Shown: one piece after another, positions 37,358 to 45,397 of the stretch
Numbering within the stretch: position 1 is the stretch's first letter
Layout of the letters: each line of letters opens with the position of its first letter
DNA from: Runella sp. CRIBMP
Lineage (GTDB): Bacteria; Bacteroidota; Bacteroidia; Cytophagales; Spirosomataceae
Length of the DNA: 64,000 nt
Assembly (NCBI RefSeq): GCF_009905605.1
Contig: NZ_JAAAKZ010000003.1
Span: forward strand, 682,001-746,000
Direction: 5' to 3'
Program-made: the position numbers and the translations under genes
Notes under the pieces: generated by a model
Told to the model about the DNA's origin: nothing
The model's input: only the letters and a program-made list of their open reading frames with translations
Databases searched by the model: none

Positions 37358-39505
37358 TTATTTCCCTTTCCCCCAAATCGCTAGCGCTATGCGCAGTTTA
37401 TAGTATTCATATTGGCCTTCCAGTTGCTCAAACAATGGTTTTAGCGCTGCGCCGGGCGTTACTTGGAGTAGGTCGGCGGCTTCGGTGATGGTGCGGTATT
37501 CATTTTTGGTCAGGTACTGCCATACGTCTACTTCGTAGCCATCTTCGTACAGCTTGGCCAAGTGCGAGTATACCGTCAGTTCGTTCAAGTTTCGGCGTTG
37601 GGCAATCTGGCTTGGCGTCAATCCCTGTTTGTACAAATCGTGAGTTTCGATGTAAGTCATGCCATTAACGATTCGCGTACCTGGCTGGGTTTTGGAACGG
37701 GCGTATTCCAGAATCTCGTTGATAAACGCTTCGCCGTAATGCGAAAACTTCGTTTCACCCACGCCCGACACCTGCAACATCTGAAAACGGTTTATAGGGC
37801 GTTTTTCGGCCATGTCTGATAAGGTAGCATCCGAAAACACCACAAACGGCGGCACGTTCAGGTCATCGGCCAACTGCTTCCGCACCTTGCGTAGTCGCTC
37901 AAACAGTTCATCGCGAATGACCTCCTTCTTGGTCTTCACGGGTTCGGCGGTTTCTTCCTGACGCTTCCGCTTTTCTTCGTACGATTCAAACCGCACCAAT
38001 TGCACCTTGCGCTCTCCGCGCAGTACTTGCCACGAGGTATCGTTAAGCTTGAGTGAATGTGCTTCGTCGTAGGCTACATCCATCACGCCCGAGTTGAGCA
38101 TTTGGGTGAGGTAGTCGGCCCATTCTTCAGCGCGCAGCTCGCGGCCTGCGCCAAAAGTCTTGATGCGGTCGTAGCCGCGCTCGGTTACGTTGCGGTTGTG
38201 GGAGCCGCGCAGTACGTCAACCAACAAACCCATCGCAATTCTCTGGTCCGTACGCGCAATGGCCGATAGGGCCTTTTGGGCGGGGAGTGTTGCGTCAAAT
38301 TTGGAGCGGGGATTGCGGCATACATCACAGTTGCCGCAATCGCGGTCGACGGCTTCGTTGAAATAACTCAACAAAATGCGCCGCCGACAGTGGTCTGCTT
38401 CGGCGTATTGCTTCATGCGGTCGAGTTTTGCAAATTGAATGTCTTTGAGGTGTTGGGGCAATTCCGAACTTGCAATCATGTCGCGGCGCATCATCCAATC
38501 GGCAAAACTATAAAACAGCATCGTGTCGGATTTAAGTCCGTCGCGGCCTGCGCGGCCAATTTCTTGGTAAAAACTTTCGACGTTGCTGGGCATGTTGTAG
38601 TGCATAATCCAGCGTACGTTCGATTTATCAATCCCCATTCCAAAAGCGATGGTGGCGACCATGATTTGTATATCGTCGCGCAGAAAATCATCCTGCACTT
38701 TGGAGCGTTCTTCGGGAGGGAGTTTGGCATGATAATGCCGTGCATTGATGCCCTTTGCGCGTAGTTTTTGGGCAATGTCTTCGGTGGTTTTGCGGGCCAG
38801 ACAGTAGATGATGCCCGACTGATTGGGGTGGTCATTGATAAATTGCTCAATGACCCTGATTCGGTTGCGCCCCGGCAGCACATTGAGCGAAAGGTTGGGG
38901 CGGTCAAACGACGCCTCAAACACCCGCGCTTCGGGAATGCCCAATTGTTTGAGCACGTCGCGCCGCGTTACGCGGTCGGCGGTGGCCGTTAGGGCCACCA
39001 TGGGTACGTGCGGAAAAGCCGCTTTTAGAATGTGCAACTGCGTGTATTCTGGACGAAAATCGTGCCCCCACACTGATACACAGTGAGATTCGTCTACGGC
39101 AAATAGATTGATTTTCAGTGACCTAATAAAGTCCAGTGAGCCAGAGGCAAAAAGCTTCTCTGGCGCAATATAGAGCAGTTTTAGCTCGCCCGCGTGGCAT
39201 TGTTTTTCGATGGCGTATTGCTCCGCTGTACTCTGCGTACTGTTTAGAAAAGCGGCCTCAATGCCGTTGGCGCGGAGGGCTTGGACTTGGTCTTTCATGA
39301 GCGCAATCAACGGCGATATCACGAGTGTGATGCCCTCTTTCATTAAGGCAGGGACTTGAAAACACACAGATTTGCCACCGCCTGTAGGCATCAGCACCAT
39401 GCAGTCGTTGCCTGCCGCTATCCAATCAATGATTTCGGATTGTAACGGTCTAAAGGTATCGTATCCAAAGTATTGTTTTAAAATCTGTTCTTTACTGAGC
39501 AACAT
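37358..39505 (-). CDS. recQ: ATP-dependent DNA helicase RecQ
   Basis: This 715-residue 3'-5' helicase acts in recombination and fork repair. Motif I is GGGKSVCFQ, motif II is DESHCVSVWGHDFRPEY (S where DEAH is usual), and motif VI is QEIGRAGRDG. The RQC zinc cysteines are in CRRRILLSYF and DCGNCDVC. An HRDC domain lies near residues 535-605 (DELFERLRKVRKQLADDLN). A C-terminal helix-turn-helix domain follows (THDLYKQGLTPSQIAQRRN), typical of RecQ proteins in Bacteroidota. Length and order are complete. It is convergent with ptrB and divergent from the unknown gene at 39674. Confidence 0.96.
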   Translation of the reverse strand: MLLSKEQILKQYFGYDTFRPLQSEIIDWIAAGNDCMVLMPTGGGKSVCFQVPALMKEGITLVISPLIALMKDQVQALRANGIEAAFLNSTQSTAEQYAIEKQCHAGELKLLYIAPEKLFASGSLDFIRSLKINLFAVDESHCVSVWGHDFRPEYTQLHILKAAFPHVPMVALTATADRVTRRDVLKQLGIPEARVFEASFDRPNLSLNVLPGRNRIRVIEQFINDHPNQSGIIYCLARKTTEDIAQKLRAKGINARHYHAKLPPEERSKVQDDFLRDDIQIMVATIAFGMGIDKSNVRWIMHYNMPSNVESFYQEIGRAGRDGLKSDTMLFYSFADWMMRRDMIASSELPQHLKDIQFAKLDRMKQYAEADHCRRRILLSYFNEAVDRDCGNCDVCRNPRSKFDATLPAQKALSAIARTDQRIAMGLLVDVLRGSHNRNVTERGYDRIKTFGAGRELRAEEWADYLTQMLNSGVMDVAYDEAHSLKLNDTSWQVLRGERKVQLVRFESYEEKRKRQEETAEPVKTKKEVIRDELFERLRKVRKQLADDLNVPPFVVFSDATLSDMAEKRPINRFQMLQVSGVGETKFSHYGEAFINEILEYARSKTQPGTRIVNGMTYIETHDLYKQGLTPSQIAQRRNLNELTVYSHLAKLYEDGYEVDVWQYLTKNEYRTITEAADLLQVTPGAALKPLFEQLEGQYEYYKLRIALAIWGKGK

Positions 39506-40581: not shown

Positions 40582-41430
40582 TTACTTTAAAATAGCTCGA
40601 ATGCCGCCGCTTGGGTTTTTGCAATCGCCGTTAAAGCGCGGGATGAGGTGCAGGCTGGCGTGGGGGAATTTTTGCCCAGCGCTTTTGCCGATGTTCATGC
40701 CGGTGGTGAAGCCATCAGGTTGAAAGTCGGCTTTGATGCGTTTTTGCACAAAAGTGGAGAGTTGCACCAAGTCTTTTTGTTCTTCAAACGTCAGCTCAAA
40801 ATAATCGGCAACGTGGCGTTTTGGAATGATCAACGTATGACCTTTGGCAACAGGATAACCGTCCAACACCGCGTAACTCAGCGGCGTTTCTGCCAGTAAT
40901 TGCAATCGTTCGGCAGGCTTACAAAAAGGACACTTTGACTGATTATCAGCTATTTGATTGATAGGTCGATATTCATAAAACTCGGTATTTTCGTTCAGAA
41001 AAATGGAAGTATATGGCAATTTTACAAAACACTGATAGGTAGGTTTTCCATGCACCTGATGCGTACGAAATCCGTCTTTTTGAATATCGCGCCGAACGGC
41101 GAAATAGGCTTTGCCCGTTGGTTTGAGCAAACTTGAAATTTGCATTAATACCTGATTTTGCTCTTCGGGAAAGAGCACATTTAATACATAAAAACAGAGA
41201 ATGGTATCAAACGTTTCAGAAGGATATTGTGGAAAATAGTACGGGTCAAACCCCTGAGCATCAAACCCTTTTTGGTGCAAAAAATCAACGTCCTTGCCAA
41301 ATCCGCAACCAAAATCCAGAATTTTACCTAATAATACATTTTTTTCTAGGAGTTTACGAATCGGAAAAGATGGCTTGTCTCTTGGGATTGCTGTAAGATG
41401 GTTGAAGCAATTTAGTTTTTGATATTCCAT
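40582..41430 (-). CDS. SAM methyltransferase fused to a HIT-family domain
   Basis: This is a 282-residue two-domain protein. Residues 1-150 form a class I SAM methyltransferase: motif I LDFGCGFGKD (38-47), D62 in GFDPYY, and YVLNVL at 81-86. The pattern recalls the phosphorothioation-associated methyltransferases. No NPPY/DPPY motif and no target-recognition domain are present. Residues 165-282 form a HIT nucleotide-hydrolase/transferase domain with zinc ligands CPFC (167-170), H206 and H257. The HIT triad reads H257-A-S259-L-H261, with serine at the usual catalytic histidine position. It overlaps the upstream HNH gene by 19 bases. Its G+C content is near that of its neighbours, unlike the HNH gene. 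The substrate is unknown. Confidence 0.85.
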   Translation of the reverse strand: MEYQKLNCFNHLTAIPRDKPSFPIRKLLEKNVLLGKILDFGCGFGKDVDFLHQKGFDAQGFDPYYFPQYPSETFDTILCFYVLNVLFPEEQNQVLMQISSLLKPTGKAYFAVRRDIQKDGFRTHQVHGKPTYQCFVKLPYTSIFLNENTEFYEYRPINQIADNQSKCPFCKPAERLQLLAETPLSYAVLDGYPVAKGHTLIIPKRHVADYFELTFEEQKDLVQLSTFVQKRIKADFQPDGFTTGMNIGKSAGQKFPHASLHLIPRFNGDCKNPSGGIRAILK

Positions 41431-42530
41431 TCTTCAAACCCTCTAATTGTTGTTAAATAATCACACGTTTTTTGTAATTGCTGAATTGCATCTGTTTGCC
41501 AATTTTCAAAAGAAGAGTCCCCTAAAAGTGATATTTTTATCTCCTTATCAAACCTTGTAGGATTAGTATTATGTAAAAGTTCCCAATAATACAAAATCAG
41601 GTTTTTTTGACGCTCAATTAAATTTACTGATGGCAATTTGTCTCTTTTAAGGTTATTAATACTTGGTTTCGCTGGCAGTAAATTCCATAAATCATTATTT
41701 TTCAACACTGAAAAAGGAATGACATGGTCAATATCATAATTACTGATTTTGTCACCTGTCCAAACACAAAAAACAGCACCTTCACTTTTCAGCAACTCCT
41801 TATATTTCACTTTAGACTCCTTTACATCTCTTTCTGTCACAGGACTTTTTAAAACTTCCTGTAAAACCATTTGTGTTGATAATAATTTATTTGAAGCACT
41901 AACAGAAAATTCAGCCCATTTAACGAGAAGAGAGTCTTGTCCTGTAATAAAACTGCCTAAAAGCTTGAATGCTTCATAGTACTCTTTGGAAATCCAGAAG
42001 GAGCCAAATGATTGGATTAAATATTCTTTATCAATTTTAACTGACCGTAAACTCGCCTTGACAAGATTAAATTTATAAATGCTATATTCTTCATTTGATA
42101 TTGAACGCCCAATGTATCGCATAGGCATAGTGACAATTGTATTACGGAGCTTTTTGATGAGTTCAACAAAGACAGGTTGTATATCTTGCGGGATTCCTTT
42201 ATACTTTAAATCATTATAGAATGCTGAAAATCCTCCATATGGTTGATATCTATCTGTAAGTTCTTTAAATGGCCGTTCAAAAGCCAATTGGACATTACCT
42301 TGTATTTGTGCAAATGAAATATTTGCTTCGAAAATTGGATAATAATAGACAAGCCATTTTTCTACTAATAGCCACAAAGGGATATAAATCTTATCATCCT
42401 TTGAATTAATAAAAGGTGAGTTCTCTTGAATAATATCAATTGTACCTCGAAGGAGAGCAAATTTATAGGTAGTTGTTTTACTATCTCTTTCAATAATTTT
42501 ATTAATGTTTTTAAATATTTCGTAATTCAT
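41412..42530 (-). CDS. HNH endonuclease-domain protein
   Basis: This 372-residue protein has a helical N-terminal region of unknown fold (TYKFALLRG at residues 21-29) and a C-terminal HNH-type nuclease domain. The motif runs C255-VWTG, D268-H269 (DIDHVIPFS), N283 (WNLLP) and N293/K295 (NNLKRDKLP). This is the HNN-like variant with the metal-binding D-H and N in place. ATG 42530 is preferred; a longer start at 42563 adds 11 residues. The gene is AT-rich: two 60-base samples I counted gave 30% and 33% G+C, against 47% in the neighbouring GH106 gene, suggesting horizontal acquisition. The following methyltransferase-HIT gene starts inside its last codons. A defence role is possible but unproven. 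Confidence 0.85.
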   Translation of the reverse strand: MNYEIFKNINKIIERDSKTTTYKFALLRGTIDIIQENSPFINSKDDKIYIPLWLLVEKWLVYYYPIFEANISFAQIQGNVQLAFERPFKELTDRYQPYGGFSAFYNDLKYKGIPQDIQPVFVELIKKLRNTIVTMPMRYIGRSISNEEYSIYKFNLVKASLRSVKIDKEYLIQSFGSFWISKEYYEAFKLLGSFITGQDSLLVKWAEFSVSASNKLLSTQMVLQEVLKSPVTERDVKESKVKYKELLKSEGAVFCVWTGDKISNYDIDHVIPFSVLKNNDLWNLLPAKPSINNLKRDKLPSVNLIERQKNLILYYWELLHNTNPTRFDKEIKISLLGDSSFENWQTDAIQQLQKTCDYLTTIRGFEEWNIKN

Positions 42531-42687
42531 AGAAATAAATATTTTGAACCACAAATTACTCAAAAAGTTGATATGACTTAATTATACTCCTACCTAAGAG
42601 ACCTCAAGATGTATAATCAATAGTAAATGAACCACTTAAAGCTATAACGTATCAAAAGAAGGGTGCGAAGGAGACAAAAAATAAAAA

Positions 42688-42817: not shown

Positions 42818-45397
42818 TTAATTTTTTGCCGCTTCCAAAGTCACATTACCCAACAAGCCCGAAGGCATGGGTGTCCATTGGGCGGCGTTAAACGGTTTGT
42901 ACTGAATATCTACCATGTTGATTTCCTGAAACTTCTTCCATTCGGGCTGCTGCGTGTCGCGCAGGCGCATGTAGTTGGCCGAAAGGTTGGTCACCTCAAT
43001 CACAATACGATTTTGTTTGTTTTTCAGGGTATTGGCAGGAATGTCCAGTTGAAAAGGCAGACTCCATGCTGTACCGATTTTTTTGCCATTGAGGGTCACA
43101 TCAGCCACTTCGCGGACGTCGCCCAGATCCAGTGTTATCTTTTGGGTCGGGCTAAAACCCTTGGGCAAATCAAAAGTGAGTGAATAGCGTGCCGTGCCCG
43201 AAAAATAACTTGCAGAGTCTGAAAGTGAAGCCCAAGAACCGAGTTGAGTAAGGGTGGTGGCTTGGGGCAAATAGGGTTTGCCTTCAATAAATTCTAATTT
43301 CCAAGTGCCTTGGAGCGGTGCGGTTTTAACGTTGGCAAGAACTGGCCCGCGCCCGCGGACTGGTTTGGCGTTTGAAACGGCAGGCCGGTACGCCGGTGCG
43401 GCCGAGCCCTCGCCGACGTTGGTGTCCAGCATCAAAAAGCAGGATTCACCCGAACGAAGTTTTAAGTACACCTGCGTTTTTCCGCCTTCTATCTTCATGG
43501 GCAACAGCGTGGTGTTGCCCGTCAGGGGTTGATAAAGGGCTACTTTTTTGGCCGGAGTGGACAGAGTAATCCAGCCCTCGCTGAATTTTTGGTCTTGGTT
43601 GGCAATGAAGTAAACCCCTTTGCCATTTTGCGTTTTACGAATGTATTTCAGCCCCTCTTTGGCCCAAGTTTCCTGACGAAGATTGGCGGAGGTCAGCAGA
43701 ATTTCAAGTCCTTGAAGGCTTGGGAAGCTTTGGCCCGTCCATGTTTGAAGCATTTTTTGAAAGGCTTCATTTCGTTCTTTGTGCTCCTGAAAACCCGTGG
43801 GTTGTTTGGGTAAATGTTCCATAAAAATCACTTTAACACCCATTTTTGTCAACTCTCCCAATCGCGTTAGCGTGGTTTTGGGAAGGTAAGTAGTGGCGGG
43901 AACGAGCAATGTTTTGTACTTGCCCGAAGCGTCAGGTTTGAACTGTTGAAGTTGATGGTCCGAAATAAAATCAAACGCAAAACCATTGTTCCAAAGCCAT
44001 TCGCCCAACTGCCCAAAAGGCAGTTTTAGCAGCCATTTGTCTACGTGATGGACTTCCAACAGATGGATGCCGCCGCTGGCTCGGGCTTGGGTGGCCCACA
44101 AGTCGTGAATGGGAAAGTACACCAGCAGGTCGTTGTCGGGCTGACTGTTCTGCAAAATCGTCTGACAGCGCTCTACGTATTGATTCATCAGTGGATAATG
44201 TTTCCAAAAGTGCGAATTGATGCCGTAGTTGGTGGAGGCATAAAACAGCCAACCCGGATAGTCGGCATTTTTGGGCGAGTAGGTGGTGCCGTGGTAAAAA
44301 ATATGGTTGATACCCGCCGTAAACAGCTCATCAAGCTGGGGTTTGATTTGCGATAGCGACACTTTAAAGTGGTTGGCGAGCCAAGTCGTGGATTCTGAGC
44401 TGACCAGTTTTTTGCCCGTCAGGTGCGCCGCTGAGCTAGCAAACTTCATCGCCAGCGGATTGGGCGTGCCGTAGCGGTCCACTTCGTATTGGTCATCTAC
44501 GCGCAGGCCTTTGATGGGAAAACGGCTGCTGCCGAAGGATTCGGTTTCGGGAATATCCGACAGTGCGTACAAATCCAACAGATTGCCGGGGGAGCCGTGG
44601 GCTTGATAGCGGGTTACAAAGCCTTTTTTCCTAGACCAATCGGTCCATTTTTTGGCGTAATTTTCCGCCAATAGCTCCGCCAACGTTTGGTGATAATCTA
44701 TTTTGACCAAGGCAGTGGTGGTATCCGTAAAAGCGTTCCACTGGCTGTGGAGGTCGTAGCCGCGTCTTTTTTTGAATTCATTCAGAAAATCATCCGTCCA
44801 GTTGGCACCATATACTTCGTAGGAATCGTTGTACATGGCACGAGGAAGGTCTTTGATGGTGGCAAACGCCGAATCAAAACGCTGCACGTACTTCGGAATG
44901 GCATCTACCGCAAATGGGTCGAGCACCAATCCAGCGCCGCCGGGGGCGGCACGTTTGACGGCCTGCTTGGTCAAAACACTTTGGATTTGGCCGTTGGTGT
45001 ACTGCCATTTTTTTGCCGCCATATCGGGCGTCACATTCGGGCCACCGAAGGGCCAGCCCGTTCCGGTGGTCATGTCTACGCCGAGTCCGAGGCGCTTTCC
45101 TTCGCGCACGGTGTGCGTCAGCATCTGCATCCATCGTGGACTCAGGTAAGAAATGGCCTCTTTTTCAAGACCTTTAACGCCGTAAATCGGAATAATATGA
45201 ACACCTCCTAGCCCCGCCTTCGCGAAGTTTTCGAGTTGCCAAGTGATGTCGCTCGCCGTAACGGTGCTGCCCATCCACCACCAGTACGTCCAGGGTTTGG
45301 CGGTATTGGAGAGGGGCTGTGGGGTGTTGGTCTGGGCCGTGATAGATGGCCCCGCTGCCAAGGTAATTAAAAGGCAAAGGGAGATGATTTTTTTCAC
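42818..45397 (-). CDS. Exported GH106-like alpha-L-rhamnosidase family protein
   Basis: This is an 859-residue exported protein with a signal peptide (MKKIISLCLLITLAAGPSITAQ). A catalytic TIM-barrel-type region follows, with the N-terminal hallmark YWWWMGSTVTASDITWQLENFAKAG split around WWW, then GLGVDMTTGTGWPFGGP. The C-terminal galactose-binding-like beta domain is near residues 740-840 (LDLGDVREVADVTLNGKKIGTAW). These features match glycoside hydrolase family 106 and relatives, which remove rhamnose from plant or algal polysaccharides. It is a single gene ending in a strong terminator. Linkage and substrate are inferred from the family only. Confidence 0.85.
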   Translation of the reverse strand: MKKIISLCLLITLAAGPSITAQTNTPQPLSNTAKPWTYWWWMGSTVTASDITWQLENFAKAGLGGVHIIPIYGVKGLEKEAISYLSPRWMQMLTHTVREGKRLGLGVDMTTGTGWPFGGPNVTPDMAAKKWQYTNGQIQSVLTKQAVKRAAPGGAGLVLDPFAVDAIPKYVQRFDSAFATIKDLPRAMYNDSYEVYGANWTDDFLNEFKKRRGYDLHSQWNAFTDTTTALVKIDYHQTLAELLAENYAKKWTDWSRKKGFVTRYQAHGSPGNLLDLYALSDIPETESFGSSRFPIKGLRVDDQYEVDRYGTPNPLAMKFASSAAHLTGKKLVSSESTTWLANHFKVSLSQIKPQLDELFTAGINHIFYHGTTYSPKNADYPGWLFYASTNYGINSHFWKHYPLMNQYVERCQTILQNSQPDNDLLVYFPIHDLWATQARASGGIHLLEVHHVDKWLLKLPFGQLGEWLWNNGFAFDFISDHQLQQFKPDASGKYKTLLVPATTYLPKTTLTRLGELTKMGVKVIFMEHLPKQPTGFQEHKERNEAFQKMLQTWTGQSFPSLQGLEILLTSANLRQETWAKEGLKYIRKTQNGKGVYFIANQDQKFSEGWITLSTPAKKVALYQPLTGNTTLLPMKIEGGKTQVYLKLRSGESCFLMLDTNVGEGSAAPAYRPAVSNAKPVRGRGPVLANVKTAPLQGTWKLEFIEGKPYLPQATTLTQLGSWASLSDSASYFSGTARYSLTFDLPKGFSPTQKITLDLGDVREVADVTLNGKKIGTAWSLPFQLDIPANTLKNKQNRIVIEVTNLSANYMRLRDTQQPEWKKFQEINMVDIQYKPFNAAQWTPMPSGLLGNVTLEAAKN

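Follow-up and report, generated by a model that had tools for sequence, protein, structure and literature searches.

What does an HNH nuclease gene do in the company of a methyltransferase that is itself joined to a HIT domain? The question is raised by a stretch of 64,000 nucleotides from Runella sp. CRIBMP (contig NZ_JAAAKZ010000003.1, positions 682,001 to 746,000; the whole stretch is called the window here), part of a genome of 7.13 Mb, in which an HNH endonuclease gene overlaps a gene for a methyltransferase–HIT fusion protein (MT-HIT; Table 1). The first-pass annotation of this DNA had treated the two as one coupled unit and a candidate undescribed system. Both open reading frames (ORFs) are present where that annotation placed them, the nuclease being read from an ATG at 42530 to 41412 (starting from a TTG in the same frame at 42563 would lengthen it by 11 residues), and the 19 shared bases suggest translational coupling. 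Our preferred reading, to which we assign a probability of about 0.4, is that of a mobile two-gene nuclease unit, an HNH effector with a dedicated accessory MT-HIT, most likely in conflict with invading DNA of phages or plasmids.

Linkage of the two genes and exchange of the nuclease

MT-HIT was searched for in overlapping samples of 222 family, 390 order and 395 phylum genomes, and 52 distinct full-length loci were recovered (17 in the family sample, 15 more in the phylum sample and 20 more in the order sample). The distribution is patchy, with the gene present in 17/222 family genomes and 17/395 phylum genomes, and the named relatives nearest to the MT-HIT of the window are from Runella. At 51 of the 52 loci MT-HIT has an HNH-nuclease gene upstream of it in the same orientation, which upholds the coupled unit; it is the next gene at 47 of these 51, with overlaps of up to 47 bases and gaps of up to 144 (measured for ORFs taken from the first start codon), and a Tpt1/KptA gene stands between HNH and MT-HIT at four loci (L076, L085, L087 and L088). 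The contig of the 52nd locus, L083, ends inside Tpt1, and a second contig from that genome, L084, breaks off within the complementary portion of a Tpt1 that comes after an HNH gene. One HNH family accounts for 49 of the 51 nucleases and the other two (L115, L154) are HNH_2-type; three of the 51 ORFs are short, those of L080 and L110 lying at contig ends and that of L150 being truncated (296 amino acids). Counted outside the 52 are L161 (MT-HIT in pieces, HNH fragment adjoining), L162 (partial) and the HIT-only relics L169, G112 and G206. The linkage extends to six order-level methyltransferase relatives without a fused HIT, where HNH is adjacent or one gene away in 6/6: the genes are divergent and one base apart in L163, L165 and L167, in tandem in L164 and L168, and part of a three-gene run HNH–HIT–methyltransferase in L166. 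McrBC genes lie directly beside the HNH and methyltransferase pair, which has no HIT, in L164:4018-8425 and L167:9811-14316.

The dependence is not mutual. Searching the family sample for HNH returned 28 places in 27/222 genomes, 16 with MT-HIT downstream, one cut by the contig end and 11 without MT-HIT in the fetched locus (eight intact and three broken genes, in loci reaching about 1 to 1.5 kb each side), and wider stretches around six of these 11 (L171–L176) held no MT-HIT either. Rare adjacency, which would have counted against a coupled unit, was therefore not what we found from the side of MT-HIT, but seen from the nuclease the pairing is often missing. Since MT-HIT comes with a nuclease at 51/52 loci but the nuclease is often alone, the partner depends on the nuclease and not the reverse. 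Neighbours of lone HNH genes include UDG-like and Piwi-like genes (L019) and a NACHT-like gene (L021), names read from translations and not from profile matches.

Mapped on a quick tree of 50 MT-HIT proteins, in which 15/47 inner branches are open, the nuclease class (A, B or HNH_2) switches 11 times; the well-supported branches, taken singly, force 6 changes for class B and 7 for class A. Two of the 52 loci, L119 (ORF ending about 13 codons early) and L146, are absent from the underlying alignment A1. Nuclease class is somewhat clustered on the tree (as low in 3/200 shuffles), so that vertical descent also plays a part. MT-HIT stays while the nuclease is exchanged, even for a distant type. 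The window's own site shows one such exchange, as the position between RecQ and GH106 holds type A in two genomes (the window and L073) and type B in three (L074, L075 and L076). Compared with L074, the window MT-HIT is identical at 15/36 of its first 36 residues and at 230/246 of the remainder, and compared with L073 the synonymous divergence (dS) is 0.037 for HNH, 0.14 to 0.44 for five flanking genes and 0.67 for MT-HIT. We read these sequence comparisons as a probable recent HNH exchange in the window lineage, with a breakpoint inside the MT-HIT gene. The ratio of nonsynonymous to synonymous change against the nearest genome is 0.25 for HNH (8 + 8 changes only) and 0.065 for MT-HIT, patterns compatible with purifying selection on both genes.

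No clean empty site was found among the genus genomes checked. The only one with the 290-amino-acid flank gene besides the window genome and three carriers, G169 (L208), has RNA ligase and HD-kinase genes at the site, together with 38 bases close to the edge of the contig that match the end of MT-HIT; it is probably a carrier missed by the MT-HIT search and was left uncounted. Two small genes resembling a toxin-antitoxin pair, as read from the sequence, lie there between the 290-amino-acid gene and the HD-kinase (L208:8488-9300).

Outside the Bacteroidota genomes the same HNH family meets methyltransferases and HIT proteins in other layouts. In plasmid records the HNH profile finds single-chain methyltransferase–HNH proteins of 576–602 amino acids (Azospirillum, Roseomonas, Pseudoalteromonas and Sphingobium), a methyltransferase gene directly before HNH (two Acinetobacter plasmids and one Pseudoalteromonas plasmid), and a HIT gene directly before HNH (Polaromonas, Aromatoleum) or directly after it (Hymenobacter, Persicobacter). 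Among 16 plasmid HNH loci viewed, 11 have a methyltransferase or HIT partner, one has a fragment and four have neither (L197, L198, L202 and L211, from Tolypothrix, Deinococcus, Leptolyngbya and Pseudoalteromonas shioyasakiensis), ratios that are biased by the choice of the 16 from search lists, four of them via the HIT search. Neighbours of plasmid HNH genes include cas1f and cas3 at one locus and McrC at another. Against the MT-HIT profile, methyltransferases from other phyla give weak matches or none (only one of four fused plasmid methyltransferases reaches it, E 2e-4), so that more than one family may fill the "methyltransferase" role. The HNH alignment A2 includes the L166 nuclease, and a profile rebuilt without it still recovers L166, L181, L182, L217 and L218 (E 2e-9 to 1e-12).

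Several further records are of interest in their own right: a 79-amino-acid methyltransferase-like fragment just before HNH on a Marinomonas plasmid, with McrBC-like genes adjoining (L213:3380-3619); an annotated TIGR04096-type methyltransferase on a Picosynechococcus plasmid, beside cas1-cas2 and with an HNH gene near (L216:4461-6530); and HIT-domain and TIR-domain genes under the match on the Mycolicibacterium vanbaalenii plasmids H40 and H41, possibly a Thoeris-like HIT/TIR pair. In the phage collection the window HNH has no relative at E <= 1e-4 and MT-HIT gives 7 records, matched over the HIT part; viral contigs yielded 7 methyltransferase relatives, and the stretches fetched from them held no HNH-family ORF. 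A phage origin of the unit was set aside on these grounds. One of the viral contigs, of 355,874 bases, encodes a relative of the methyltransferase half at 45% identity, again with no HNH-family ORF in the fetched stretch (L187:7980-8408).

Domains and conserved residues of the two proteins

The nuclease assignment is secure at the level of the domain, with HNH_4 at E 1e-8 (Pfam, 35.2 bits against a cut-off of 22) and the catalytic His and metal-binding residues kept; H269, N283 and N292 are invariant in 55/55 aligned relatives. So are Tyr22 and Lys23 near the N terminus, and distant members keep Tyr-Lys save for one with His-Lys. The N-terminal 215 or so residues have no convincing solved relative among the 60 of 75 matches listed. 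PADLOC v2.0.0 returns only Cas9-type HNH domains and weak PDC-M01B and PtuB matches for the HNH proteins, and neither window protein reaches any cut-off of NCBIfam 20.0.

The methyltransferase half of MT-HIT is recognised by Methyltransf_23 (Pfam, E 4e-11, 43.3 bits, cut-off 27). The window protein retains the motifs LDFGCGFGKD and YVLNVL, and the glycines, D47 and YVLNVL are invariant in 50/50 proteins. Neither a [DNS]PP[YFW] motif nor a Pro-Cys pair is present in the window MT-HIT, which therefore does not qualify as a type II restriction-modification methyltransferase; the first-pass annotation was right that this is no classical restriction-modification arrangement and that the NPPY motif of DNA methylases is absent. 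Its likening of this half to the phosphorothioation-associated methyltransferases stands as relatedness and fails as membership: TIGR04096 matches residues 11-95 only (E 1e-17), along profile positions 5-92 of 478, and scores 63.8 bits against a cut-off of 150. Each of the 50 aligned MT-HIT proteins is recognised by TIGR04096 (at E <= 1e-5) and by HIT models, the NCBIfam cut-offs having been compared for the window protein only.

That the C-terminal half is a HIT domain is plain from Pfam (E 1e-18, 67.9 bits, cut-off 21.5) and from its family profile, which reaches solved HIT proteins at up to E 2e-23. Characterised HIT enzymes use the middle His of the motif H-x-H-x-H as their nucleophile. 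Of the 50 MT-HIT proteins, 32 keep this His and 18 have Ser, Ala, Thr or Gly in its place, while the outer histidines are kept in 49/50 and 50/50. The 18 comprise all 17 family members and L141, and the loss is one change on the MT-HIT tree. The window copy reads H-A-S-L-H, with S259 in place of the nucleophile, and so falls outside the catalytic branch, which makes the earlier label of nucleotide hydrolase/transferase doubtful for it. All Tpt1-bearing MT-HIT loci fall in the clade without the nucleophile, and Tpt1 was not seen in the DNA examined at any of the 32 loci with the middle His; because the loss happened once, its link with Tpt1 is a single coincidence in evolutionary terms. On MT-HIT, PADLOC v2.0.0 gives only weak ThsC (E 4e-8) and weak mad2 (E 7e-4) matches.

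Table 1. Positions within the window of the unit, its domains and motifs, and the two flanking genes.
Feature	Position	Strand	Basis
HNH endonuclease gene, 372 amino acids, type A of the "TYKF" HNH family	41412..42530	-	HNH_4 E 1e-8; conserved H269, N283, N292
N-terminal Thr-Tyr-Lys-Phe motif of HNH, T21-F24	42459..42470	-	alignment of 55 relatives
HNH domain, residues 255-300	41631..41768	-	best solved relatives are Cas9 HNH domains
19-base overlap of the HNH and MT-HIT genes	41412..41430	-	ORF coordinates
MT-HIT fusion gene, 282 amino acids	40582..41430	-	Pfam domains; one of 52 full-length loci
Class I methyltransferase half, residues ~10-155, without [DNS]PP[YFW]	40966..41403	-	Pfam; G41/G43/G45/D47 and YVLNVL invariant in 50
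HIT half, residues ~165-282	40585..40938	-	Pfam and solved HIT relatives
HIT motif H257-A-S259-L-H261, Ser replacing the middle His	40648..40662	-	alignment of 50 MT-HIT proteins
RecQ helicase, flank, context outside the unit	37358..39505	-	domain scan; same flank in L073-L076
GH106 rhamnosidase, other flank, context	42818..45397	-	domain scan

Genomic neighbourhood and known systems

Phosphorothioation genes adjoin the pair at several loci. SspB (E 2e-96) and SspC (E 0) stand directly before HNH in L084, as does SspD (E 1.5e-93) in L085, and L118 has a shortened SspC (E 1e-225); phmmer added SspB in L118, SspB and an SspC piece in L086, SspD with pieces of SspC in L085 and L088, and, where the contig of L159 ends, a piece of SspD; at these loci too the Ssp genes stand directly before HNH. 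The pair survives beside fragmentary Ssp genes in L085, L086 and L088 and beside a stop-bearing SspB remnant at L082. A stop-bearing SspB remnant lies just upstream of HNH in G108, and G192 has a 22-position SspB match at the HNH start, below the family cut-off. The window genome gave no SspB and no DndC match, SspC and SspD not having been searched genome-wide, and is not assigned to the Ssp systems, for which other unit-bearing genomes qualify in part. In L170:8071-13232 a stand-alone HIT gene, kin of the HIT domain found in MT-HIT, sits in antisense orientation between a cysteine desulfurase (DndA-like) gene and DndC–DndD-like genes.

RNA-repair genes form the second recurrent context. Tpt1 is present in 7/17 family carriers (one as a remnant), each time at the MT-HIT locus, vs 25/205 non-carriers anywhere in the genome (Fisher p 0.005, uncorrected for kinship); the window genome has no Tpt1. 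The Tpt1 of L076 matches PDB 7kw8 (E 3e-115) and agrees at all nine positions named for the Runella slithyformis enzyme in PMC6333775, and on this sequence agreement it is the characterised R. slithyformis Tpt1. At L076 and L081 the locus continues with RNA ligase and HD-kinase genes, and both occupy the same genomic site in L208; RNA ligase was seen at 2/73 loci searched, with L208 as a further case.

The defence reading of the first-pass annotation is upheld in part. At E <= 1e-30, 71 PADLOC families have matches among 142 proteins encoded near 20 loci and 5 among 128 control proteins, where the figures count families and not independent genes, several families match one protein, and 25 of the 71 are listed. 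The controls were 20 regions on the same contigs, and the 20 loci and 20 control positions were hand-picked; ORFs above 1400 and then above 1000 amino acids were dropped from both lists (149 to 142 neighbours, 135 to 128 controls), a filter that removed a type IV restriction enzyme at L107 which would have counted for defence. The DpdF and PsyrT matches are very probably RecQ. So neighbours match more defence models than controls do, and some of the units lie directly after Ssp genes, but the flanking genes of the window are ordinary by domain scan. The window contains no tRNA, and no Rfam family reaches its gathering cut-off there.

Some other neighbours stand out. A protein of about 1600 amino acids (with DEAD and UvrD helicase domains in L169) is encoded no more than a few kb from the unit, or from the HIT fragment in L169, in five genomes (L116:10119-14933, L154:3240-8048, L158:4131-8996, L152:910-5727 and L169:11089-15918). 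Just downstream of MT-HIT, and convergent with it, two distant genomes share a gene for 493-508 amino acids with a weak GHKL-ATPase match (L079:2780-4261 and L118:10372-11898; phmmer E ~1e-209). Upstream of HNH in L082:7828-8106 is an ORF of near-identical tandem repeats, probably a DNA repeat and not a gene.

We found no named system matching the pair in PADLOC v2.0.0, where no single system models both window proteins, in NCBIfam 20.0 or in the full-text literature (which covers few subscription journals). Nor is the pair described in the available portions of PMC10853773, PMC9503650, PMC12839542, PMC8775712, PMC6333775, PMC8565338 and PMC12409345. Resemblances to known systems are nevertheless several. 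With Ssp (SspABCD with SspE or SspFGH) the unit shares the placement of HNH directly after SspB-SspC or SspD, at several Spirosomataceae-type loci and in the distant Bacteroidota locus L118; unlike in Ssp, the window HNH and 55 aligned HNH proteins match no PADLOC SspE model, the window genome gives no SspB match and the Ssp genes are incomplete at most adjoining loci. All 50 MT-HIT proteins match TIGR04096, named for a "DNA phosphorothioation-associated putative methyltransferase", whereas the window protein stays below its cut-off, covers part of the profile and continues into a HIT domain. The HIT domain itself is that of hydrolases such as Ap4A phosphorylase, Fhit and HINT, but here it is fused to a methyltransferase and the middle His is gone in the window's clade. 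Septu (PtuA ATPase and PtuB HNH) likewise couples an HNH effector to a partner gene, but the pair has no ATPase, and the PtuB model matches 1/55 HNH members (E 7e-4). The R. slithyformis Tpt1/HD-Pnk RNA-repair system is represented by its characterised Tpt1 between HNH and MT-HIT at L076, but Tpt1 is absent from the window genome and found at 7/17 family MT-HIT loci, one of them with a remnant. ThsC of Thoeris type II is a HIT protein beside conflict genes (PMC8565338), and its model matches MT-HIT weakly; here the partner is an HNH nuclease, and no TIR or SIR2 was found among neighbour proteins scanned singly. HNH nucleases near Dnd and BREX genes appear in phosphorothioate and BREX surveys (PMC10853773, PMC12839542), which in their available portions name no HIT or methyltransferase–HIT partner for them. 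In E. coli, phage and plasmid are restricted by an HNH enzyme that is accompanied by two methyltransferases (PMC12409345), a precedent for HNH and methyltransferase genes acting against invaders. The unit would best be taken as a variant of nuclease-based conflict modules, with the chance of something new in kind left open.

Weighing the readings

In the preferred reading the HNH protein would cut nucleic acid, most likely the DNA of an invader, and MT-HIT, made in step with it as a dedicated accessory enzyme, would act on the cut ends or left-over nucleotides, either so that the damage resists repair or to free ends that are blocked; alternatively, the partner may act on the nuclease itself. 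Wherever the contig reached far enough to tell, full-length MT-HIT was accompanied by a nuclease, and it persists through the exchanges, so it probably works on the product of any such nuclease. Two points favour action at ends: the one partner serves nucleases of two Pfam families, and the recurrent extra genes encode enzymes of nucleic-acid ends. At some loci the accessory genes act on such ends (Tpt1, RNA ligase, HD-kinase), and at others they mark the backbone (Ssp phosphorothioation). In the window lineage the HIT half would bind nucleotides without turnover, and the methyltransferase would be the remaining active half. Several observations weigh against the preferred reading. The nuclease lacks MT-HIT at 11/28 family places and lacks either partner at four of the 16 plasmid loci, while truncated MT-HIT genes (L162 and the HIT-only relic L169, and likewise the relics in G112 and G206) have no HNH in the fetched DNA. 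Most loci have no Ssp or RNA-repair genes, the window among them, and co-occurrence with SspB by genome is not significant (5/17 carriers vs 26/205 non-carriers, p 0.07), so that only the local adjacency is convincing. HIT catalysis is not essential in the window's clade, since the nucleophile is lost in 18/50 proteins and in the very clade that holds all the Tpt1 loci. HNH enzymes normally leave 5'-phosphate and 3'-OH ends, and Tpt1, HD-Pnk and RNA ligase heal RNA ends with 2',3'-cyclic phosphate; because these chemistries differ, the RNA-end genes need not be chemically coupled to HNH.

The alternatives explain parts of the same evidence. MT-HIT might be a sensor subunit that holds or releases the nuclease upon infection according to adenosine ligands, S-adenosylmethionine or S-adenosylhomocysteine at the methyltransferase and an adenine nucleotide at HIT. 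Both kinds of domain bind adenosine compounds, and a HIT half that has lost its nucleophile and kept its outer histidines fits a binding-only role; a constant partner with a swapped effector is moreover a pattern of sensor-effector defence systems, which constant MT-HIT with an exchanged nuclease matches. That a methyltransferase or a HIT protein can take the partner's place beside a single HNH family, and that the HIT site may only bind, is explained by a sensor as well as by action at ends. Strictly kept methyltransferase motifs suit catalysis, however, the lone nucleases do without the supposed sensor, and a partner common to two Pfam families of nuclease is harder to square with specific protein contact, so that we regard a ligand-gated nuclease as unlikely, if a serious contender. 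The patchy distribution and the nuclease swaps would also suit an unusual restriction-modification system in which the methyltransferase protects host DNA and HNH cuts unmodified DNA recognised via its N-terminal domain, and the single-chain proteins of Proteobacteria resemble type IIG layouts. Such a system has little to commend it here: besides the missing motifs, the best profiles are general class I and TIGR04096-type methyltransferases (mad2 being weak), the methyltransferase type is not conserved, only one of the four fused plasmid proteins reaches the MT-HIT profile, and the nuclease occurs without any methyltransferase.

An addiction module, with an HNH toxin neutralised by MT-HIT, possibly through modification of the invariant Tyr22-Lys23, would account for the overlapping genes, the plasmid cousins and a pair that outlasts its fragmentary Ssp neighbours; yet an obligate antitoxin would forbid the eight intact HNH genes of the family sample that have no MT-HIT close by, and all 51 Bacteroidota pairs begin with the nuclease gene, although five plasmid pairs begin with the partner, which leaves toxin-antitoxin action improbable. 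We give as little credence to RNA-repair housekeeping, in which MT-HIT would belong to a Tpt1–RNA ligase–HD-kinase operon with HNH incidental. The cassettes of L076 and L081, the paired genes at the L208 site and the identity of the L076 Tpt1 speak for it, but RNA ligase is rare at the loci searched and HNH nearly constant beside full-length MT-HIT, and the window genome has no Tpt1. Human HINT1 converts nucleoside 5'-phosphorothioates to nucleotides and H2S (PMC8775712). Desulfuration, with the HIT half clearing phosphorothioate nucleotides, is made attractive by the stand-alone HIT gene among DndA-like and DndC–DndD-like genes in L170, and we dropped it as the leading explanation since most Ssp links belong to the clade whose HIT half has no nucleophile left.

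Returning to the two-gene conflict unit, a more specific "cut and block" version of it, which we think decidedly doubtful, would have the exchangeable HNH cut invader DNA and a constant partner (methyltransferase, HIT or Tpt1) block or strip the ends against the ligases and kinases of the invader, which would amount to a new kind of nucleic-acid immunity. If it were true, the loss of HIT catalysis in the one Tpt1-recruiting clade would be a swap of end-processing steps.

The unit is found repeatedly in Bacteroidota, has plasmid-borne cousins in Proteobacteria and matched no named system in the sources searched, and it joins HNH effectors, phosphorothioate-linked methyltransferases and Tpt1-type RNA repair, fields that are rarely connected. 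For the window's lineage, the lost HIT nucleophile warns against naming MT-HIT a nucleotide hydrolase. To our knowledge the physiological role of bacterial Tpt1 is an open question; as the R. slithyformis Tpt1 sits between the two genes of the unit, that question is directly testable there, and blocking or stripping of cut ends, if it took place, would give bacterial Tpt1 a natural role.

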